NCBI RefSeq assembly: GCF_024692365.1
Contig: NZ_JAILMR010000114.1
Span: 1-64,000, forward strand
Direction: 5' to 3'
Origin: Ruminococcus sp.
GTDB lineage: Bacteria > Bacillota > Clostridia > Oscillospirales > Ruminococcaceae
DNA length: 64,000 nt
A model generated the notes under the pieces. The model saw nothing but the letters and a program-made list of their open reading frames with translations. It was not told the DNA's origin and made no database searches. Below, in pieces: positions 36,632 to 59,961 of the stretch. Both the position numbers and the translations under genes were made by a program. Every line of letters starts with the position of its first letter. Position 1 is the first letter of the stretch.

Positions 36632-39151
36632 TCACTGATTGACCTCTACACCGTAGCTTGCACACAGTGTTTGCAGGGCAAGTTTGTAACCCAGACCGAT
36701 AGTCTTTGCCTTCCAGCCGTTCTTGTTGTATATCTCCATAGCTACTACCGAGCGTTCATCATTAAGACCTGTTATCTCATAATTGCAAAGCTCTTTACCG
36801 CCACAGCTTATGTGGACGGTAGGCTTGCTTACATGGCTGAAATCCTGACCTTCCTTGTCACCATAGATAGCGAAAGCCACTGCCAGCCTTGTTATATCCG
36901 CATCGAGTTTTGAAAGCTCGACCGTGAACATTCTTGTCATCTGAGGATGATTGTTCACCGCCTTGTCAACAGAAACTTTCTGACCGAAGAAAACCAGATC
37001 TGCATCGCTCCTTACCTTTCTGGTGTCATTCAGCAGGAATACGTAACCGTCAATATCAATACCCTCTTCCGCCTGATAATCCATATCGATGACCAACATC
37101 TGAGAAGCATAGTCGTTAAGGTTGAATCTTGCACCGCTCACCAGCTTGACAGCACCATTATCCTCATCAGCCGTGATATTCTCAGGTGCCACATCGATTA
37201 TCTCGTCATCGGCAGTATTGTTCTGCTCACCGACTACTTCTGCAACAGCTTCGGGGATAGTTTCAACTTCAGGTTCTTCGGTCACGATTTCATCAGATTT
37301 TTCCTCAACCGCGGGTTCAGCTTCCGCTATTTCGGGTTCAAACTCAGGTACAGAAATCTCTTCAACAGCGGGTTCTTCTGCAACAATTTCAGAAGAAATT
37401 TCCTCAACAACAGGAGCAGTTTCCGCTATTTCGGGTTCAACCTCGGGTACAGAAACATCCTCAATAACAGGTTCTTCTGTCTCAATTTCAGCAGAAATTT
37501 CCTCAACTACGGGTTCATTTTCCGCTATTTCGGGTTCAATCTCGGGTGCAGAAATCTCTTCAACAGCAGATTCTTCTGTCACTATTTGAGCAGATGTTTC
37601 CTCGACTACGAGTTCTGTTTCCGCTATTTCTGGTTCTAACTCGGGTACAGAAATCTCTTCAACAGCAGGAACATTTTCCACTATTTCAGGTTCAATCTCG
37701 GATGCAGAAACGTCCTCAACTGCACTCTCGACCTTTGCGGGTATAGCCTGCGGAACAGCCGATACGCTAGGTTCGGTTTTACCGCCAAAGCGTACACTCT
37801 CACCAAGCTGTTTCATTCTAGCGAACATTGCCTTAGCCGCACCTTTTTCAATATCATCGGCACTGAACTGCTTCTCGGCGTGTATGCAAATAATTGAATC
37901 TGCATGGTCTATTTCCAGTACACAACAGAAAATATCCTGCTGAACAGAACTCTTCATCATCGTCGCCTTGATGTATCCGTTCCTGTCGTTGCGTACAGTA
38001 TCGGTGTCTATCATTTCTCCGAAATTGCCAAGCTGTGCAGTAAGTCCCGATTCTGCCGCCTCAGCTTTAGTCATTGTTATTATCTCACAGTCGAAATCGT
38101 CAGTACAGTTTTCATAAGATGTGAATCCCACATCGTTAAGCGTGAGAGCGTTTTTGTTCTCGCCCCTCAGTACAGAATAGTCGTCTGATATTACACAAAC
38201 TTCGTCCGCAATTTCCAACTCCATAGGCTTGCGCTCGGGTTCTTCAAGCAGCAGGAATTCTGCGCCGTTAGATTCAGCATAGAGTTCAGCGGTACTTCCC
38301 TTGCAGCCGCCTATCACAACATCTTTACCCGCAAATCCCCTGCCAAGAACGATGTTCTTTTTTATGATATCGACTTCTTTCAGTGCGGGACACTCCGTCA
38401 GCGCACCCTCGCTTATCTCCAGAAAAACAGGCAGCAGAGTGAGCTTTTCAAGATTTTTGCAGCTGAGTTTTTCAAGCACCGTCACGTCGCCGATAGCCGA
38501 CGCATCATTCAGCGACAACATGAACTTTTCAATCTGACCATTTTCCCACTCAATTCCGTTCCTGTCAGTTATTGAAAGTCTGCCGTCCTTTAACAGCAGA
38601 GCCGCATTTTCCTCAGCAAAACTACCGCCTGCATAATTCAGCTGCCAGAAGACCTGACTGCCGTTTTTGAAACCTTTGCGTTCAAAACCAAAAGCATTTG
38701 ATGTTTGTTCACCCTCTGAATAAGAACTGCGTGTCACAGTGATATCCAGCTTATCTGCGATATCGGTATTAGAAAAAAGATCAGCTACCGCTTTCAGCTT
38801 GCTTTCGGCAGAATCATCAACAGCCGATACTATCTTATAAGAAAGACAATCAGCCCTGCCCTGTGCGCCAAGACTGCACTTCATATCGTCAAAGATCTGT
38901 CTGTCATCAGCACTCAGAGATGCAGGATCACTGCCCGACCATGCCATAAACAGCATCTGCGGAAGTTCAAACTCACCGCCCTCTTTAGCAAAAATCAGCC
39001 CGTCATCATCACGAACTACCCTAACACCCGATGTACTGTCAAACCCGACACCGGTGATGCCGTTATTTGCAAATACCTGCGCAAGTACATCATCATTTAT
39101 TTTATATGTTATGAGTTTGCACTGTGTTTCGTTCAGATTAATGTTTTCCAT
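36632..39151 (-). CDS. TerD-domain protein with repeat linker
   Basis: 839 residues from the ATG at 39151 with GAGGAGG 9 bases before it. Residues 1-460 are an alpha/beta region with one LRR_5-like part (LEKLTLLPVFLEISEGALTECPALKEVDI). Residues about 470-640 are acidic tandem repeats of 33 residues. Residues about 660-839 form a TerD domain (calcium-binding, tellurium-resistance/stress family) with DIDGYVFLLN and the YEITGLNDERSVVAMEIYNKNGWKA block conserved. TerD proteins act in membrane-linked stress complexes, often with TerC or kinases. No ter partner genes are here. The extra N-terminal half is not part of canonical TerD. Confidence 0.82.
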   Translation of the reverse strand: MENINLNETQCKLITYKINDDVLAQVFANNGITGVGFDSTSGVRVVRDDDGLIFAKEGGEFELPQMLFMAWSGSDPASLSADDRQIFDDMKCSLGAQGRADCLSYKIVSAVDDSAESKLKAVADLFSNTDIADKLDITVTRSSYSEGEQTSNAFGFERKGFKNGSQVFWQLNYAGGSFAEENAALLLKDGRLSITDRNGIEWENGQIEKFMLSLNDASAIGDVTVLEKLSCKNLEKLTLLPVFLEISEGALTECPALKEVDIIKKNIVLGRGFAGKDVVIGGCKGSTAELYAESNGAEFLLLEEPERKPMELEIADEVCVISDDYSVLRGENKNALTLNDVGFTSYENCTDDFDCEIITMTKAEAAESGLTAQLGNFGEMIDTDTVRNDRNGYIKATMMKSSVQQDIFCCVLEIDHADSIICIHAEKQFSADDIEKGAAKAMFARMKQLGESVRFGGKTEPSVSAVPQAIPAKVESAVEDVSASEIEPEIVENVPAVEEISVPELEPEIAETELVVEETSAQIVTEESAVEEISAPEIEPEIAENEPVVEEISAEIETEEPVIEDVSVPEVEPEIAETAPVVEEISSEIVAEEPAVEEISVPEFEPEIAEAEPAVEEKSDEIVTEEPEVETIPEAVAEVVGEQNNTADDEIIDVAPENITADEDNGAVKLVSGARFNLNDYASQMLVIDMDYQAEEGIDIDGYVFLLNDTRKVRSDADLVFFGQKVSVDKAVNNHPQMTRMFTVELSKLDADITRLAVAFAIYGDKEGQDFSHVSKPTVHISCGGKELCNYEITGLNDERSVVAMEIYNKNGWKAKTIGLGYKLALQTLCASYGVEVNQ
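37263..37722 (-). repeat. 99-bp tandem repeat coding a 33-residue acidic unit
   Basis: Four to five imperfect copies of 33 codons in the TerD gene with the core EPEIAE-x-P-VVEE. The alternation of EPE and VVEE blocks is likely an extended, repulsive linker. Bounds are approximate because the first and last units are degenerate. Confidence 0.85.
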
Positions 39152-39255: not shown

Positions 39256-39536
39256 GATATTGTGAAAAAAATATTGAATTTTGTTTGTGAAAACAAACGT
39301 AGGTCAGAATGCCAAAGAGGAGAGCTTTTGGTCAAGCTTTTCGCGAAAAGATTGCGGAGAGCTCGAGAGGCAGAGCCTCTCGGTCAAGGTGCAAAGGCGA
39401 TGTGGCAATAATGTTACTAATAGAAAAGTGAAGATGTGTTCCTGTCAAAAAAATGCGCGGGCAATACCAAATTGTACGAGCGTGTACCAAAGTATACGAC
39501 CGTATCTTTTGGTATGCGTAAATATTGACCGCGCAT

Positions 39537-39566
39537 GAAATCGGACAGCGAAGCGAATCCGATTTC
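39537..39566 (+). repeat. Conserved-loop hairpin, copy 1
   Basis: Stem GAAATCGGA / TCCGATTTC (9 bp, perfect) around the 12-base loop CAGCGAAGCGAA. Confidence 0.85.
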
Positions 39567-39707
39567 TCGACCCGAGGTACGAGGGGCGACAAACCCGCAG
39601 TACGTCTATCTAAAGCACGAACCTTTGATAGGCGAACTGCATGATAAATGTGTTCTTATCAAAGGTACAGCGATGGACAGTTTCGCCCCTCTCTACGTTC
39701 GGGTCGA

Positions 39708-39737
39708 GTCATCGAATTCGCTTCGCTGTCCGATGAC
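39708..39737 (-). repeat. Conserved-loop hairpin, copy 2
   Basis: On the minus strand: stem GTCATCGGA / TTCGATGAC (one G-T pair) around the loop CAGCGAAGCGAA. Confidence 0.82.
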
Positions 39738-39965
39738 GGCGCGGGCGGTCTGTGCGCCCAGCTGGAAAGTGAATGTCGATGATTTTCTGCTCCGTCGGAT
39801 TTTTGTGACCGCCCGCTTTTTGACATGGCGTGGAGGTAGTCAGCTATTGAATTGATTGTGGTCGCGTCGCTTTCGTGCCTCTCGAGCTCTCCGCAAGCCT
39901 TTCGCGAAAGGCTTGACCCAAAGCTCTCCTCCTTGGCATTCCTCACTCATTTTCTGCACCCCATA

Positions 39966-40927: not shown

Positions 40928-40967
40928 TCTGTCAAACAAGAATAATACAATCAGAAGGATGACTGCC

Positions 40968-42860
40968 ATGAGTAATAATCACAAGATCATCGGTATAATC
41001 TGCGCCGGCATACATGATTCGGGAACACAGAATTCTGTGCTTTCTCTGATACATGAAGCCGATAAACGCGGATACAGATCCGTTGTTATCAGCAATTTCA
41101 CATATTATGGAATCGATTACACCCGTGCCGAATCCGAGGTATTCAGCCTGATGGATTCGCCTGTGTTCGATGGTCTTATCCTCATGCCCGAAAGCATAAA
41201 GAGCGAGCAGCTGTGGCAGAAAGTTCTCGAACACGCAAAGGCATCTGGTAAGCCCTTTGTCTGCGTTGACCGTGATGTTCCCGATTGTTTCAGCGTGACT
41301 TTCAGCTACGGAAGTTCCTTTGAACAGGTCGTAAGGCATATGGTGGAAGTTCACAAACCCAAACGTCTGAATTTTATAGGAGGAATGGAAAACAACAGTT
41401 TTTCGGAAGAAAGGCTGAATGTTTTTAAAAAGGTACTGGCTGAGAACGGACGTGAATTTCAGCCCGAGCGATTTGGTTACGGTCAGTTCTGGGAGAAACC
41501 TACCCTTCAAGTACTGGACAAATTCTACAACGGCGAAACTGAGCCCCCCGATGCAATAATCTGTGTCAACGATACAGAAGCCATGACATGCATAAACTAT
41601 CTCAGAAGCAAAGGCATCGATGTGCCGAAAGACGTTATCGTAAGCGGATTTGATGGCATCGACGAGGAAAGATATATTCTTCCCCGCCTGACCACTGCCG
41701 CCTGTGAACCCGACCAGATGAGCGGAAAATCATTTGATATGCTCGAAGAGATGATGGCAGGCAAAACGCCCGAAGAACGGCTGATAGTCATTCCATACAA
41801 GCTGAGGGTTTCACAGTCATGCGGCTGTATCCCCCACGGTGAAGCAGACAAGATGAGCAAGCTGATGGAGCTGTTCATTTCAATAAAAAACAGTGAAAGA
41901 CACGAGCGCAGTATGTTTGAGTACGGCTCTCACGCAGGTGAACTGAACAGCTACGAACAGTTCGCAAGAATGATACCCAATTTCTGCGAGTGTCCTTCAT
42001 GGTGCTGTATCGACCCTAAATTTCTGAAAGATGACGACAGTGAAAGTGCGGAAGATACTGTATCAGGCGACGAGATGCTGATGTTCGTACATTGTGATAA
42101 CTGCGGAGAGATCGCTTCTCCCGAAACATATACTTTTGATATACCATTTTATCAGAAAGAGCTTCTGCCTGACCTCGATAAAGTGCTTGATAAATACTCG
42201 GCGCTGTTGATCTCACCCCTAAGTTACCGCGGCAACAGCATGGGACATCTTGCCGCCGCAATGGACAGCGAGGGCTTTGATTTTCTTTTCACCCAGAGAC
42301 TGATCAGCAACACCAACGAGATATTTGAAACGCTGAAAACCAAGATACGTCTGCAAAAAGCCTATGCCAAGGTAGCGGATATGCATATGCGCGACCCCAT
42401 GACAGGTATATACAACCGCAGGGGCTTCTATATGCGCATGGATGAACTCAGCAAGAGCGGCATTACCAACTTTGAGCTGTTTTCGATAGACCTTAACAGG
42501 CTCAAATACATAAATGATACCTTCGGGCATTATGCGGGCGACAAAGCTATAATCACAACTTCAGATATCATAAGCAGCACGGCTGGAAATAGTGCGGTGT
42601 GTGCGCGGTTCGGCGGAGATGAGTTCATTGTGGCGATACCCGTAACGGATAGTATTTGTTCTGCCCCCAAATACATGAAGAGCGTTGAGGAAGCGGCAGA
42701 AAGATTCAATTCCGAAGACAACGAACCTTTCAGACTTTCGCTGAGCATCGGTGATGCCTGCCTTAAAGTGTCCAGCAGAGAAAACATCGATCTTGCCATG
42801 AAAGCGGCAGACGAAAAAATGTACGAGTGCAAGCGAAGACATCACGCAGGAAGATGCTGA
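40968..42860 (+). CDS. Diguanylate cyclase with LacI-like sensor domain
   Basis: 630 residues from the ATG at 40968 (GAAGG upstream; an in-frame ATG at 40959 is too close to it). Residues 5-285 match a periplasmic-binding-protein type sugar sensor (Peripla_BP_3) as in LacI repressors but without the DNA-binding HTH. A middle domain of about 290-460 resembles a GAF-type module with cysteines. Residues about 465-630 are GGDEF, with FGGDEF at about 548-552, so the catalytic site is intact; I see no RxxD inhibitory site just before it. No signal peptide or membrane helix. A cytosolic sugar-responsive c-di-GMP synthase is the likely role. Confidence 0.9.
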   Translation: MSNNHKIIGIICAGIHDSGTQNSVLSLIHEADKRGYRSVVISNFTYYGIDYTRAESEVFSLMDSPVFDGLILMPESIKSEQLWQKVLEHAKASGKPFVCVDRDVPDCFSVTFSYGSSFEQVVRHMVEVHKPKRLNFIGGMENNSFSEERLNVFKKVLAENGREFQPERFGYGQFWEKPTLQVLDKFYNGETEPPDAIICVNDTEAMTCINYLRSKGIDVPKDVIVSGFDGIDEERYILPRLTTAACEPDQMSGKSFDMLEEMMAGKTPEERLIVIPYKLRVSQSCGCIPHGEADKMSKLMELFISIKNSERHERSMFEYGSHAGELNSYEQFARMIPNFCECPSWCCIDPKFLKDDDSESAEDTVSGDEMLMFVHCDNCGEIASPETYTFDIPFYQKELLPDLDKVLDKYSALLISPLSYRGNSMGHLAAAMDSEGFDFLFTQRLISNTNEIFETLKTKIRLQKAYAKVADMHMRDPMTGIYNRRGFYMRMDELSKSGITNFELFSIDLNRLKYINDTFGHYAGDKAIITTSDIISSTAGNSAVCARFGGDEFIVAIPVTDSICSAPKYMKSVEEAAERFNSEDNEPFRLSLSIGDACLKVSSRENIDLAMKAADEKMYECKRRHHAGRC

Positions 42861-42872
42861 TGTTCATGTCGA

Positions 42873-43142
42873 TACCAAACGCAAACAAAAAATACCAACG
42901 ATGAAAAAATCTTACCAAACAATACGCGACCGTATCAAAATGTGCGGTCGTATTTTTTTGTACTCAGTGGTACAAATCGGAATACGCAGTACGGTATGAT
43001 CAAACAGTTTCATACCAAAGGATGGGAACTTATACCAAAGGAGAACAAACAGTACCAACGATAAAACGATCATACCAGACCATACCACTGTATACCAAAA
43101 TATACAATCGTATTTTTTCGTATGCGGTGGTACAATTTGGTA
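42873..43142. repeat. 20-bp phased TACCAAA array
   Basis: TACCAAA/C heptamers begin at 42873, 42893, 42913 and 42933 (TATCAAA), then at 43013, 43033, 43053, 43073 (TACCAGA), 43083 (TACCACT) and 43093, so the register is exactly 20 bp over 220 bp with an 80-bp (4 x 20) gap of degenerate sites. Spacers of 13 bp are not conserved. An inverted TTTGGTA ends at 43142. The stretch 42921-42954 also forms a hairpin (AATACGcGACCG with CGGTCGTATT). It lies between converging genes and has no coding content. Confidence 0.85.
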
Positions 43143-43158
43143 TGCTACTGCATATAAT

Positions 43159-43186
43159 AAAAAAGAACGCACCAACAGGTGCGCTC
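43159..43186 (-). terminator. Terminator of the phosphodiesterase gene
   Basis: Minus strand GAGCGCACC / GGTGCGTTC (one G-U pair, 4-base loop) followed by six T. Confidence 0.88.
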
Positions 43187-43189
43187 GCA

Positions 43190-43669
43190 TCATAGATTAA
43201 CAAAATTATGGATCACTCCATGAGGAGTGATGTCAAGCCATGCATAACAAGGCGGCTTTTCGTCACGAGGCTGACCCGCACTGCCGGGATTGAGTATCAG
43301 CATAGTACCGCGCTGTTCGTAATAGCGCTTATGGGTGTGTCCGAAAAGAGCAAACTGACATTCTTCCTCTTTAGCTTTCTCGTAAATATTATCAACAGAG
43401 AAATTAACGCCCCATTTATCACCGTGGGCAAGGAACATACGCTTGCCGTCGGGCAGAACATATACCATGCTTTCGGGAAGTTCCTTATCGAAATCGCAAT
43501 TTCCCTTGACACATATCATATTATTATCCAGATAATGGTTTTTCAGCTTGCGAAACTCCGAGAGACCGTCACCTAAGAATATAAAAAGGTCTGCATCACC
43601 ATTACGCTTTATGATCTTTTGCATAGCGGCAAAATTACCGTGTGTATCCGAAAATACGATGATTCTCAT
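43190..43669 (-). CDS. YfcE/MJ0936-type metallophosphoesterase
   Basis: 159 residues. Metal-binding motifs are complete: SDTHGN (N-terminus), GDGLSE, GNCDF and FGHTHKRYYE. The family hydrolyses phosphodiesters in a two-metal site, with cyclic nucleotides, NMN-type or nucleotidyl substrates reported. Cytosolic. Single-gene unit ending at the terminator at 43159. Confidence 0.93.
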   Translation of the reverse strand: MRIIVFSDTHGNFAAMQKIIKRNGDADLFIFLGDGLSEFRKLKNHYLDNNMICVKGNCDFDKELPESMVYVLPDGKRMFLAHGDKWGVNFSVDNIYEKAKEEECQFALFGHTHKRYYEQRGTMLILNPGSAGQPRDEKPPCYAWLDITPHGVIHNFVNL

Positions 43670-43780
43670 GGACAGTTCCCCCCTCCCACATTATTGATTA
43701 TTATATCACATTTGAAATAAAAAATCAAGAGAACTTGTACAAATATGTGAATATTTACAAATTATTAAGGAGGTCACTAT

Positions 43781-44029
43781 ATGACTGATAACAGACAGAC
43801 TCACGAGAATATGCGACCCTTACTTGAGGAAGCTGCAAAAAAGCTCGGCGTTACGCCCGAAACCCTTGCAGGACAGATCAGCAGCGGCGATATCGGCAAT
43901 GTGCTGAAAAAACTTCCCGCCGATCAGCAGAATAAACTTACAAAAACTTTAGCGGACAAAACTGCTTGTAAAAAACTGCTGGAAACACCGCAGGCACAGG
44001 CACTTATGCGGAAACTTTCGGGAAAATAG
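43781..44029 (+). CDS. Small cytosolic protein 1 of a three-gene operon
   Basis: 82 residues, helical and charged (MRPLLEEAAKKLGVTPETLAGQISSGDI) with no membrane segment. Middle and end resemble a helix-turn-helix-like or coat-type repeat, but no family is recognised. Strong ribosome site AAGGAGGT. Followed 18 bases later by the second small gene; the three products share short helical runs, so they probably assemble together. Confidence 0.72.
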   Translation: MTDNRQTHENMRPLLEEAAKKLGVTPETLAGQISSGDIGNVLKKLPADQQNKLTKTLADKTACKKLLETPQAQALMRKLSGK

Positions 44030-56865: not shown

Positions 56866-57113
56866 CTGCAAAAAATCCAAACAAAGTTGTGAGATATGCC
56901 AAGGAAGAGAGCTTTTGGTCAAGCTTTTCGCGAAAAGCTTGCGGAGAGCTCGAGAGGCAGAGCCTCTCGGTCAAGGGGTAAAAGCGACGTGACCACAATC
57001 AAAATAATAGCAGGCTATCTTCCCGACCACACGGCGCGGGCAATCTCAAAAATCCGAGCGTATGCGAACGTATGCATACGCTCAAACTATCTGCGTGAAT
57101 ATTGCCCGCGCAC

Positions 57114-57143
57114 GCCGTCAAACAGCGGAGCGTTTTTGACGGC
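57114..57143 (+). repeat. Conserved-loop hairpin, copy 3
   Basis: Stem GCCGTCAAA / TTTGACGGC (9 bp, perfect) around loop CAGCGGAGCGTT. Confidence 0.85.
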
Positions 57144-57283
57144 TCGACCCGAACGGAGAGAGGGGCGACTTACCCGCAGTACGTCTATTTAATGCACACG
57201 CGAATCTTCTACCAACGAACTGCGTGATAAACGTTTTCTTATCCAAAGAACTGCGTTGGACAGTGTCGCCCCTTACGGGTCGA

Positions 57284-57313
57284 GAAATCGGATTCGCTCC
57301 GCTGTCCGATTTC
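57284..57313 (-). repeat. Conserved-loop hairpin, copy 4
   Basis: On the minus strand: stem GAAATCGGA / TCCGATTTC (perfect) around loop CAGCGGAGCGAA. Confidence 0.85.
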
Positions 57314-57544
57314 ATGCGCGGGCAATTTCTACGCATACCAAAAAGTACGGTCGTATACTTTGGTACACGCTCGTACTGTTTGGTATTGCCCGCGCATTTT
57401 TGGTATAAGTTCGTATCACGCTTGTAGAGTGTGGTACATTTGGGTATCGTGCCTTGGTGATTGAGGGCTCTGCCCTCAAACTCCCGCAAGCCTGCTAGCG
57501 CGAGGCATATGCCGACGCAGTCGCATAAACCGCGCGCTTTATTT

Positions 57545-57591: not shown

Positions 57592-59961
57592 TTATTCAAT
57601 GCTAGCAGTATCCGAAGCCCTCACCTTCCCCGTATAAAGCGAAGTAAGAAGCACACTAACCACAGTAGCCGCCACGATCACAGCAGGATAAATAACAAAC
57701 ATCGAAAGGATATCAAACTTATACTCAACACTGTTCATAACACCCATCATACCAAATATAGGATCCATTGTCAGCTTGGTGAAAGGTACACAAAGCGCCG
57801 CAGAGATCACAACCGCAAGTATCGAAATGACCAAGAATCGCAGTGTGTGATGCGCCACTACCGAACGTTCCTTGAATCCGATTGCTTTCATCAGCGCTAT
57901 CTCCGACCTTTCCTTTGCGATAAATGAACGCTCCATAAGCACGCTTATCAGCACGATGATTATCACCGCAAGCACCAGCGCAAGATCTCTTACCGTTGCC
58001 ATGGTATCTCCCACGCCCATGCTGCTCTTCGTAAATTCTCTTGAATCCTCGACAATATTGGTACCCATAATGTCCTTCAGCTTTTCTCTGCGCTGATCGA
58101 TAATTTCCTTGCTCGGATTGTCATCGAAATCTATCTGGAAAGCGAATAAGGAAGAAGGTGCTGTTTCATTTATCTCGATATCCTGATGCAGTCTGCCCAC
58201 CATGCCCATCTGGTCAAAACTCTGGAACAGTGCGGATACCACGTATTCATCAGTACTGCCATCAATAGTTATCCTGACTGTGTCGCCTATCTTAACGCCA
58301 AGCTTCTCTGCGGCAGCCTCGGCAAAAGCCACCTCGTTGGTATACATAGGCGCTGTGCCGTCGGTATACTCATAATCAGTAGTTTCGGTTTTGCCGCACT
58401 GCAGAAAGCTGAGATTTGTGTTCTTGCCATCAACCTCAACGTTCAGCTGATACCAGGGTTCTACCCATACCTTTCCTGGCATATCGTTTTCGGCAAGTAT
58501 CTTTTCTATCTCTGCCGAAGCTTCATCTGACGTTTTTATACCGCCTATTATCTCCATGCCGCGCTCACTGTCGGTAAGATAAACATCACTCCGCTTGACA
58601 CTCAGCAGATACAGCAGTGAATCGCTGTCGATAGTATTCGCGGTAGCTGTCAGTATCATTATCAGCAGGGTGAACAACACGAATATAAAAGTTATAATAC
58701 CGTACTGCCTTGGTGCGCTGAGTATATCGTTCACGGATAAGAAGCCTGTGCTGCCAAGCTTGCTCTTGCTTAAACTCATCACACTGCGCTTTTTGAAACG
58801 CTCACCTGTCTGACCGTTGCGCACAGCGTCAATGGGAGAAAGCTTGTTAATCTTAGCTGTGCATCTCCAGCAGAACAGCATTATCATCCCAACTACTGCC
58901 AGGCAGCAGGCTATGCCTATCAGCACACTGTTATCACTGCCAAGCACCATGTTATCGCTGACGCTTTTGAGAAGTGCCGCACCGAAAGGTACACTTATGA
59001 TATATCCAACCGAAGCTCCAAGCACTGCAATGCCAAGGTACTTCACCATGTACATTCCCCTGATGGAGCTGTTTTTAAGACCGACCGCTTTCATAACGCC
59101 TATCTCTCTGAACTCTTCGGAGATGGTAAAACCGATGGTGAATCTCAGTACCACAAATGATACTACCAGCAGACCAATGCTAAGCACCATAAGTATCGCC
59201 GCCACCAGTATGTCCATTATGTAAGTCATCCTGATAAGGCTCTTATCGAAGTTCAGCTGAAGATAAGGTGCGTTTTTTGCAGAAGCATCTTCAAAGGCTT
59301 TTTCATCGGAGATATTGAAATAGTACATATTTCCCGCAAAATCAGCCTTTATTGATTCGTTCTCCGCGAACACCTTGTAATCCTCGCTGTTTATAATGTA
59401 TCTGGGATTCGCCATCATCGAAGAACCGTAAAGAGCGTCCTTAACAAACCCAGCAAACTCGAATTCCTTAGTAACGCCTTCAAGCTTGATGGTTATCTTG
59501 TCGCCGACCTCAAGATCGGTCTTTTTGATCTCCTGACCCGCAATGTAGATCTTGCCTTTTTCGACCTCGGTCAGAATCTCATCATTGCTGTCAAACAGAT
59601 TTATGCCCACCGTATCAATCTTGTTGAGCATACCAACTCTGTCAAGGTCACACAGTTCCTCACCATCACGCTCCAGATTAGATGATATGAGGTAGATAAC
59701 GTCCTCGCGCCTGTAATCGGTGACGTATTCACTCTCCTGCAAAAAATCCTCGATGTACTCCGATTTCTTTTCGCCTCGTGTAGCATAAAATACATCTGGC
59801 ATATTCGCTTTCTCGAAGAAGTAATCCAGCCCGTTCACCACCGACAGGATATTGTTCACACTCGATGCCGCGAACATTGCAGAAAGTATCACGAACAACA
59901 GAAGAATGATGTTCATTGTCTTTTTTCTTTTCAGGTCTTTCTTTAATATTCTAAGATACAT
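57592..59961 (-). CDS. FtsX-family ABC permease, second orphan
   Basis: 789 residues. N-terminal helix (about 17-37), a large extracytoplasmic region (about 40-240), a first FtsX domain of four helices (about 245-395), a second extracytoplasmic region (about 440-640), and a second FtsX domain (about 650-785). Start after GGAGGC. As with the gene at 2477, no ATPase is next to it. The two share the layout but not obvious sequence identity. It lies beyond repeat copy 2 from the two-component operon, an arrangement that recalls BceAB-type resistance modules, but lacking the ATPase. Confidence 0.85.
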   Translation of the reverse strand: MYLRILKKDLKRKKTMNIILLLFVILSAMFAASSVNNILSVVNGLDYFFEKANMPDVFYATRGEKKSEYIEDFLQESEYVTDYRREDVIYLISSNLERDGEELCDLDRVGMLNKIDTVGINLFDSNDEILTEVEKGKIYIAGQEIKKTDLEVGDKITIKLEGVTKEFEFAGFVKDALYGSSMMANPRYIINSEDYKVFAENESIKADFAGNMYYFNISDEKAFEDASAKNAPYLQLNFDKSLIRMTYIMDILVAAILMVLSIGLLVVSFVVLRFTIGFTISEEFREIGVMKAVGLKNSSIRGMYMVKYLGIAVLGASVGYIISVPFGAALLKSVSDNMVLGSDNSVLIGIACCLAVVGMIMLFCWRCTAKINKLSPIDAVRNGQTGERFKKRSVMSLSKSKLGSTGFLSVNDILSAPRQYGIITFIFVLFTLLIMILTATANTIDSDSLLYLLSVKRSDVYLTDSERGMEIIGGIKTSDEASAEIEKILAENDMPGKVWVEPWYQLNVEVDGKNTNLSFLQCGKTETTDYEYTDGTAPMYTNEVAFAEAAAEKLGVKIGDTVRITIDGSTDEYVVSALFQSFDQMGMVGRLHQDIEINETAPSSLFAFQIDFDDNPSKEIIDQRREKLKDIMGTNIVEDSREFTKSSMGVGDTMATVRDLALVLAVIIIVLISVLMERSFIAKERSEIALMKAIGFKERSVVAHHTLRFLVISILAVVISAALCVPFTKLTMDPIFGMMGVMNSVEYKFDILSMFVIYPAVIVAATVVSVLLTSLYTGKVRASDTASIE

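Follow-up and report, generated by a model that had tools for sequence, protein, structure and literature searches.

Plasmid iteron and centromere arrays (parC/ParR, omega heptads) consist of short phased direct repeats that a single protein reads one after another. REP/BIME elements are palindromes of 20–40 bp that are tagged with GTAG or CGTC and accompanied by a RAYT transposase, and the iterons of phage lambda are about 18–19 bp long. According to an excerpted account of lambda (PMC7466680), iterons lie in the middle of the O gene beside an AT-rich region, and extra iterons lengthen the protein. The excerpted account of phage SPP1 (PMC6316719) describes gp38 as binding direct repeats inside its own gene, beside an AT-rich tract, with oriL lying inside gene 38 and a second origin, oriR.

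We analyzed a 64,000-nt stretch (contig NZ_JAILMR010000114.1, positions 1 to 64,000; hereafter the window) of the genome of a rumen bacterium close to Ruminococcus albus, in which an array of short phased sites lies between two genes. Among the matches listed in searches of the openly licensed literature, there was no description of such arrays or of the protein family DUF6291, with which we associate them here.

The array in the window

The array is flanked by a plus-strand gene encoding a periplasmic-binding-protein-like part and a GGDEF domain (40959–42860) and by a convergent minus-strand gene encoding a Metallophos_2 phosphoesterase (43190–43669). As first annotated, the region between the GGDEF stop codon (42860) and the phosphoesterase gene holds no likely gene; a mechanical 93-aa open reading frame on the minus strand (42912–43193) was taken as spurious. 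All nine TACCAA-like sites reported in the initial annotation were recovered on the plus strand, four in the first half of the array (42873–42939; sites at 42873, 42893, 42913, and 42933) and five in the second half (43013–43108; sites at 43013, 43033, 43053, 43073, and 43093). Site 42933 reads TATCAAA, with one mismatch, and site 43073 reads TACCAGA. One 20-bp phase was common to all nine TA[C/T]CA[A/G] sites of the 329-bp gap, which none of 5000 dinucleotide shuffles matched, and TACCAA-N14-TACCAA with at most one mismatch occurred 11 times in the window against 0.19 expected. These shuffles, together with the backward-pattern and 21-bp-spacing controls given below, rule out a chance origin of the array. 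A simple tandem repeat was also rejected, 42873–43142 not being reported by Tandem Repeats Finder. Elsewhere in the window, a 99-bp tandem repeat of 4.1 copies (37262–37669) lies within an 845-aa reading frame.

The spacers between the sites had been described as unrelated, which is only partly right. The array halves are diverged duplicates (42872–43143, plus strand), 42872–42983 being copied as 43032–43143 at a distance of 160 bp, with 75.4% agreement over 114 columns. A terminator-like hairpin and T run (42926–42961, plus strand), built from array units and located downstream of the GGDEF gene, close the first half; the fold of 42912–42965 had a free energy of −15.4 kcal/mol (z −3.25). The second half ends in a fold-back of inverted units (43070–43150) that forms a long hairpin on either strand (plus strand, −34.3 kcal/mol, z −8.22; minus strand, −31.2 kcal/mol, z −6.02). 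Three terminator-like sites were found in 42700–43800 against 0.8 expected. Inspected by eye, the orthologous gap in strains AR67 and KH2T6 contains no array and instead has a hairpin with a T run.

Repeat unit and register

Exact TACCAA pairs at 20-bp spacing numbered 93 in the whole genome, against two in the backward control, and those at 21-bp spacing numbered four, against one in the control. The difference between 93 and four pairs shows that the register is not the coincidence against which the initial annotation had cautioned. The 20-bp register that it described is real as a phase, but the unit is 10 bp: the free middle of the 93 pairs again reads TAC[G>C]A (82 pairs for each of T, A, and C; G in 70 or C in 18; A in 81), and the unit is the decamer ATAC[C/G]AA[A/C]NN. 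Three successive ATACSA words in 10-bp register were found 123 times genome-wide and never in the backward control. The window array has lost most of its alternate decamers, so that a 20-bp period was what the earlier reader saw; the alternates are mostly decayed in the first half, and those at 43083 and 43103 are among the ones kept in the second. Almost no constraint falls on the two positions that follow TACCAAA (0.08 and 0.06 bits), and 78 distinct decamers occurred among the 202 units that have a next unit.

At the fetched loci, which had been picked by 10- or 20-bp patterns so that the count of 20- versus 21-bp pairs serves as the unbiased control, direct spacings were 10 (120 pairs), 20 (130), 30 (75), and 40 bp (82), with few at 41 (11), 39 (5), 21 (4), 31 (4), and 29 bp (3). 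Inverted pairs at these loci had spacings of 24 (34 pairs), 34 (21), and 44 bp (32).

A cooperative DNA-binding protein had been proposed to read the sites on one face of the helix. That the arrays are read at the DNA level is supported by direct spacings of nearly only 10, 20, 30, and 40 bp and inverted ones of nearly only 24, 34, and 44 bp, by the lack of strand preference of arrays relative to their neighbors, and by the frozen codons where the word lies inside phage genes (see below). In this respect the proposal is partly supported, but the repeat unit measures 10 rather than 20 bp and the halves are duplicates of one another. One turn of B-DNA is about 10.5 bp, so the strict spacing of 10.0 bp is not exactly one turn, and in long arrays the sites would gradually rotate away from a single face.

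Distribution of the arrays

With our own scorer (score ≥40) and gene calls from a home-made script, 67 arrays were identified in the fetched stretches of the window's genome, 60 of them intergenic, four in reading frames, and three across gene ends. The same scorer returned eight chains of score ≥40 in 310,611 bases of reversed sequence, and a small number of the 67 may hence be false positives; it is the exact-pattern controls, not this scorer, that carry the main claims. Both neighboring genes were called for 58 intergenic arrays, of which 22 lie between divergent, 30 between co-directional, and six between convergent genes. In the co-directional gaps, 14 arrays run along and 16 against their neighbors, indicating no strand preference. 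The AT-rich tract of a replication origin was absent beside the 36 intergenic arrays of score ≥55 (AT 0.59 before and 0.58 after the array; window mean 0.56), and we therefore do not regard the chromosomal arrays as origins but take them as probable sites of binding or titration.

Two further arrays of the same word in the window, at 39465–39500 (plus strand) and 57350–57415 (minus strand), lie inside copies of a composite dispersed element. The first copy (39307–39941) is a MITE-like element of approximately 635 bp with the array in its middle and 66-bp inverted ends that are 92% complementary; the second copy is at about 56880–57400, and others occur at many fetched loci of the window's genome. 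This element carries many arrays and other arrays stand alone; the array at 42873–43142 resembles other loci only over 47–86 bp of array-like DNA. In the coding frames of unrelated proteins, arrays were observed at L038 (1948–2053), L044 (1908–1993), L047 (1914–1989), and L062 (2104–2179), the reading frame at L047 being a DUF6291 gene. At these in-frame arrays, the decamer is open in all three frames and encodes linkers such as IPNDTKxYxx.

Three successive ATACSA words were present in four of 29 genomes of the genus (123 in the window's genome, 26 in the presumed KH2T6 genome, and two each in those presumed to be R. albus 7 and AR67) and absent from the other 25. Four successive words were found, among 391 genomes of the class, only in the window's genome and in G211, where both arrays, detected without reference to the protein, have DUF6291 no more than 400 bp away. 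One array is common to the window's genome, R. albus 7, and KH2T6 at a locus read as chorismate mutase. By eye, the array and hairpin behind a gene shared with AR67 look better conserved than their flanks, and a third orthologous array pair, shared with KH2T6, is no better conserved than its flanks. The KH2T6 genome also contains an array of some 43 decamers on which a 40-bp repeat of higher order is superimposed (L076, 1634–2059).

DUF6291 genes of phages

Viral contigs scanned for the array alone yielded at least 120 loci, and among the matches listed were phage genes whose linker is the array. The product of these genes was DUF6291 (PF19808), a family of unassigned function, in four of four proteins. 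PHROGs assigned replisome organizer to two of three proteins (4e-15 and 3e-12) and, weakly, primosomal protein to the third, and NCBIfam gave no match for three proteins. Among the viral array loci listed, 19 of 120 have DUF6291 within 400 bp and 101 do not; many of the latter resemble simple repeats. Five loci (L112, L123, L127, L186, and L214) show the same layout as the DUF6291 loci with no DUF6291 hit. In many viral contigs (L100, L101, L105, and L113 among them), TTGTCAA or TAGTCAA comes after a string of three ATACGATTAT-like decamers; no DUF6291 was found near such strings, which are perhaps a promoter or other site.

In many phages the decamers stand directly behind the "KRW" end of the DUF6291 domain. 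A protein search, of which the best 80 of 197 relatives were used, gave 41 distinct viral linkers, and the top lag was 10 in all 41, which are related genes and hence not independent cases. A lag of 10 is not a multiple of three, so a protein-level repeat would not produce it. In a set of 37 distinct genes out of 79, the value for four-fold synonymous columns was 0.99 in the linker (5 columns) versus 0.39 in the domain (11 columns), so synonymous choice in the linker is almost fixed. AT content was 0.74 behind the arrays versus 0.63 in the domain; for 50 of 54 viral genes it exceeded that of the domain. In six of seven annotated phages, the DUF6291 gene is adjacent to, or one gene removed from, a gene for a helicase loader, helicase, primase, or replication protein.

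Arrays are not present in every DUF6291 gene. The top lag was 10 in only five of 19 DUF6291 linkers of the genus, and the only clear linker array among the seven annotated phage genes was that of Flavobacterium phage tooticki, whose score was reached by six of 200 codon shuffles. For Vibrio phage 1.265, five of 200 shuffles reached the score, but the repeat lies inside the domain; the five remaining annotated genes gave 38 to 142 of 200, and four initiator genes without DUF6291 gave 36, 168, 195, and 177 of 200. A Porphyromonas phage record (L338) encodes an initiator with another N-terminal part that ends in "TRW" before a linker with a weak, nonsignificant 10-bp tendency (36 of 200 shuffles); the layout may hence extend beyond DUF6291.

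The resident DUF6291 gene of Ruminococcus albus

DUF6291 was detected in 18 of the 29 genus genomes versus none of 14 control genomes. The window's genome has a single copy, located outside the window (G000 contig 72, about 58020–58838), whose neighbors are an HlyD-like gene, an ABC ATPase, and a MacB-like permease. The HlyD-like neighbor stands beside DUF6291 in all four R. albus genomes examined, and the R. albus 7 copy lies on a plasmid record of 352,646 bp. A prophage location was rejected because no phage gene was recognized in the gene calls of a 19.5-kb stretch, the Pfam scan covering five neighbors. No helicase loader or other replication gene was recognized beside the gene. The dN/dS of the domain ranged from 0.07 to 0.26 (six pairs, some with saturated dS), and by this sequence measure the R. 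albus gene is under purifying selection.

The C-terminal part of the resident protein matches phage proteins annotated as replication initiators or replisome organizers, and the eight annotated phage records that match the protein include no Ruminococcus phage. The linker of the gene holds seven decamers in the window's genome and four in KH2T6, and those in R. albus 7 and AR67 are decayed. In the window's genome, AT content beside the repeats is 0.69 versus 0.55 for the whole gene. In G019 and G024, the stop codon of DUF6291 is immediately followed by a different decamer word, the pattern of which has no other match in those two genomes. The predicted structure is mostly helical (mean pLDDT 71.5, pTM 0.36), and comparison with the PDB gave nine matches (best E 3.2), none being a solved fold that fits; structure was dropped as evidence of DNA binding.

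Discussion

We hold with about even confidence that the arrays are iteron-type sites for a DUF6291 protein, dispersed over a single chromosome. The window array is one of dozens of 10-bp-phased arrays of ATAC[C/G]AA[A/C]NN sites in this genome, and it also provides the GGDEF gene with a terminator-like hairpin. The linker arrays of DUF6291 genes would correspond to the iterons of a phage origin that lies within the gene for its own initiator. The resident R. albus DUF6291 protein, a candidate reader by association only, would be the most likely protein to coat the arrays, probably with one protein per decamer, and the chromosomal arrays away from its gene would serve as binding or titration sites. 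Binding by DUF6291, its cooperativity, and any chromosomal effect of binding are what we infer from these patterns, and such binding may act in regulation, in chromosome structure, or in titrating phage initiators, or may serve no useful purpose. More tentatively, a phage-type initiator may have become resident in R. albus and its origin iterons may have multiplied into a chromosome-wide binding system. Against the iteron reading count the missing AT-rich tract beside the chromosomal arrays, the many DUF6291 genes with no clear array, the viral array loci at which no DUF6291 lies nearby, the resident gene's lack of a recognized helicase loader beside it, and the predicted model's lack of a matching solved fold. 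R. albus 7 and AR67, too, have the DUF6291 gene, yet only two exact matches each to three successive ATACSA words.

Another host protein, either nucleoid-associated or an OmpR/PhoB-type regulator, could read the arrays, with the phage DUF6291 genes exploiting its word. OmpR/PhoB-type regulators use direct repeats of about 10–11 bp, and such a protein would suit both the direct repeats with dyad register and the mostly intergenic position of the arrays, often between divergent genes (22 of 58). We nevertheless consider it unlikely, since the word behind DUF6291 varies by lineage, that of G019 and G024 occurs only at the DUF6291 locus, and three successive ATACSA words are missing from 25 of 29 genus genomes.

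Passive dispersed repeats of the REP or MITE kind, spread by copying and binding nothing important, would explain why many arrays lie inside a composite element with 66-bp inverted ends, why counts vary strongly among related genomes (123, 26, 2, and 2), and why one orthologous array pair is, by eye, no better kept than its flanks. They would not account for arrays that vary in length and sequence and yet keep the word, with positions 8 and 9 after the T nearly free, the others held, and 78 distinct decamers among 202 units, nor for phage genes that hold the word against synonymous change. This explanation is likewise unlikely.

A decoy function, in which the arrays titrate the initiator of invading DUF6291-type phages, is in our judgment improbable. 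The cell keeps its own conserved DUF6291 gene, and no Ruminococcus phage is among the eight annotated phage records matching the resident protein; in favor of a decoy are the occurrence of the same word in phage genes (e.g., L173) and an excerpted report that a plasmid-borne fragment with lambda iterons blocks lambda replication, although the block also needs oop RNA (PMC3349717). An RNA-level element acting in transcripts as hairpins or terminators would agree with the hairpins at 42926–42961 and 43070–43150, but it is very improbable and disfavored as the main role, given the missing strand preference (14 along, 16 against, 22 between divergent genes), an exact 10-bp register that RNA does not need, and the lack of any Rfam match in the window above the gathering score.

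Under our preferred reading, in which a DUF6291 protein occupies the arrays, a phage-type initiator protein may bind at many places on a bacterial chromosome. DUF6291 would gain a role open to testing, along with a DNA word and a footprint that spans phages and the chromosome, and, if this is true, a phage initiator and its origin sites would have been turned into a chromosomal system. A single protein and one short DNA would suffice to test the question directly.

Among known systems, plasmid iteron and centromere arrays differ in standing at one or few plasmid loci, compared with dozens of arrays on the chromosome. REP/BIME elements and MITEs resemble the arrays of the window's genome in being dispersed and mostly intergenic with palindromic ends, some arrays riding in an element with inverted ends; the arrays differ from them in varying in length while holding a 10-bp register, and they are not one copied unit. 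The lambda origin, as far as the excerpted account describes it, is alike in having iterons inside the initiator gene with an AT-rich region adjoining, but its iterons are longer than the 10-bp unit of the DUF6291-type arrays. The likeness to SPP1 gp38 extends, within the excerpted account, to repeats inside the initiator gene, an adjoining AT-rich tract, and replication genes nearby; the domain and the word are others than in DUF6291 genes, and SPP1 is described there with two origins, whereas the window's genome has dozens of chromosomal arrays without an AT-rich tract. The array-bearing DUF6291 genes themselves combine DNA-level repeats, an AT-rich tract, and adjoining replication genes, and thereby share the layout of an intragenic initiator origin with putative binding of the repeats by the encoded protein.
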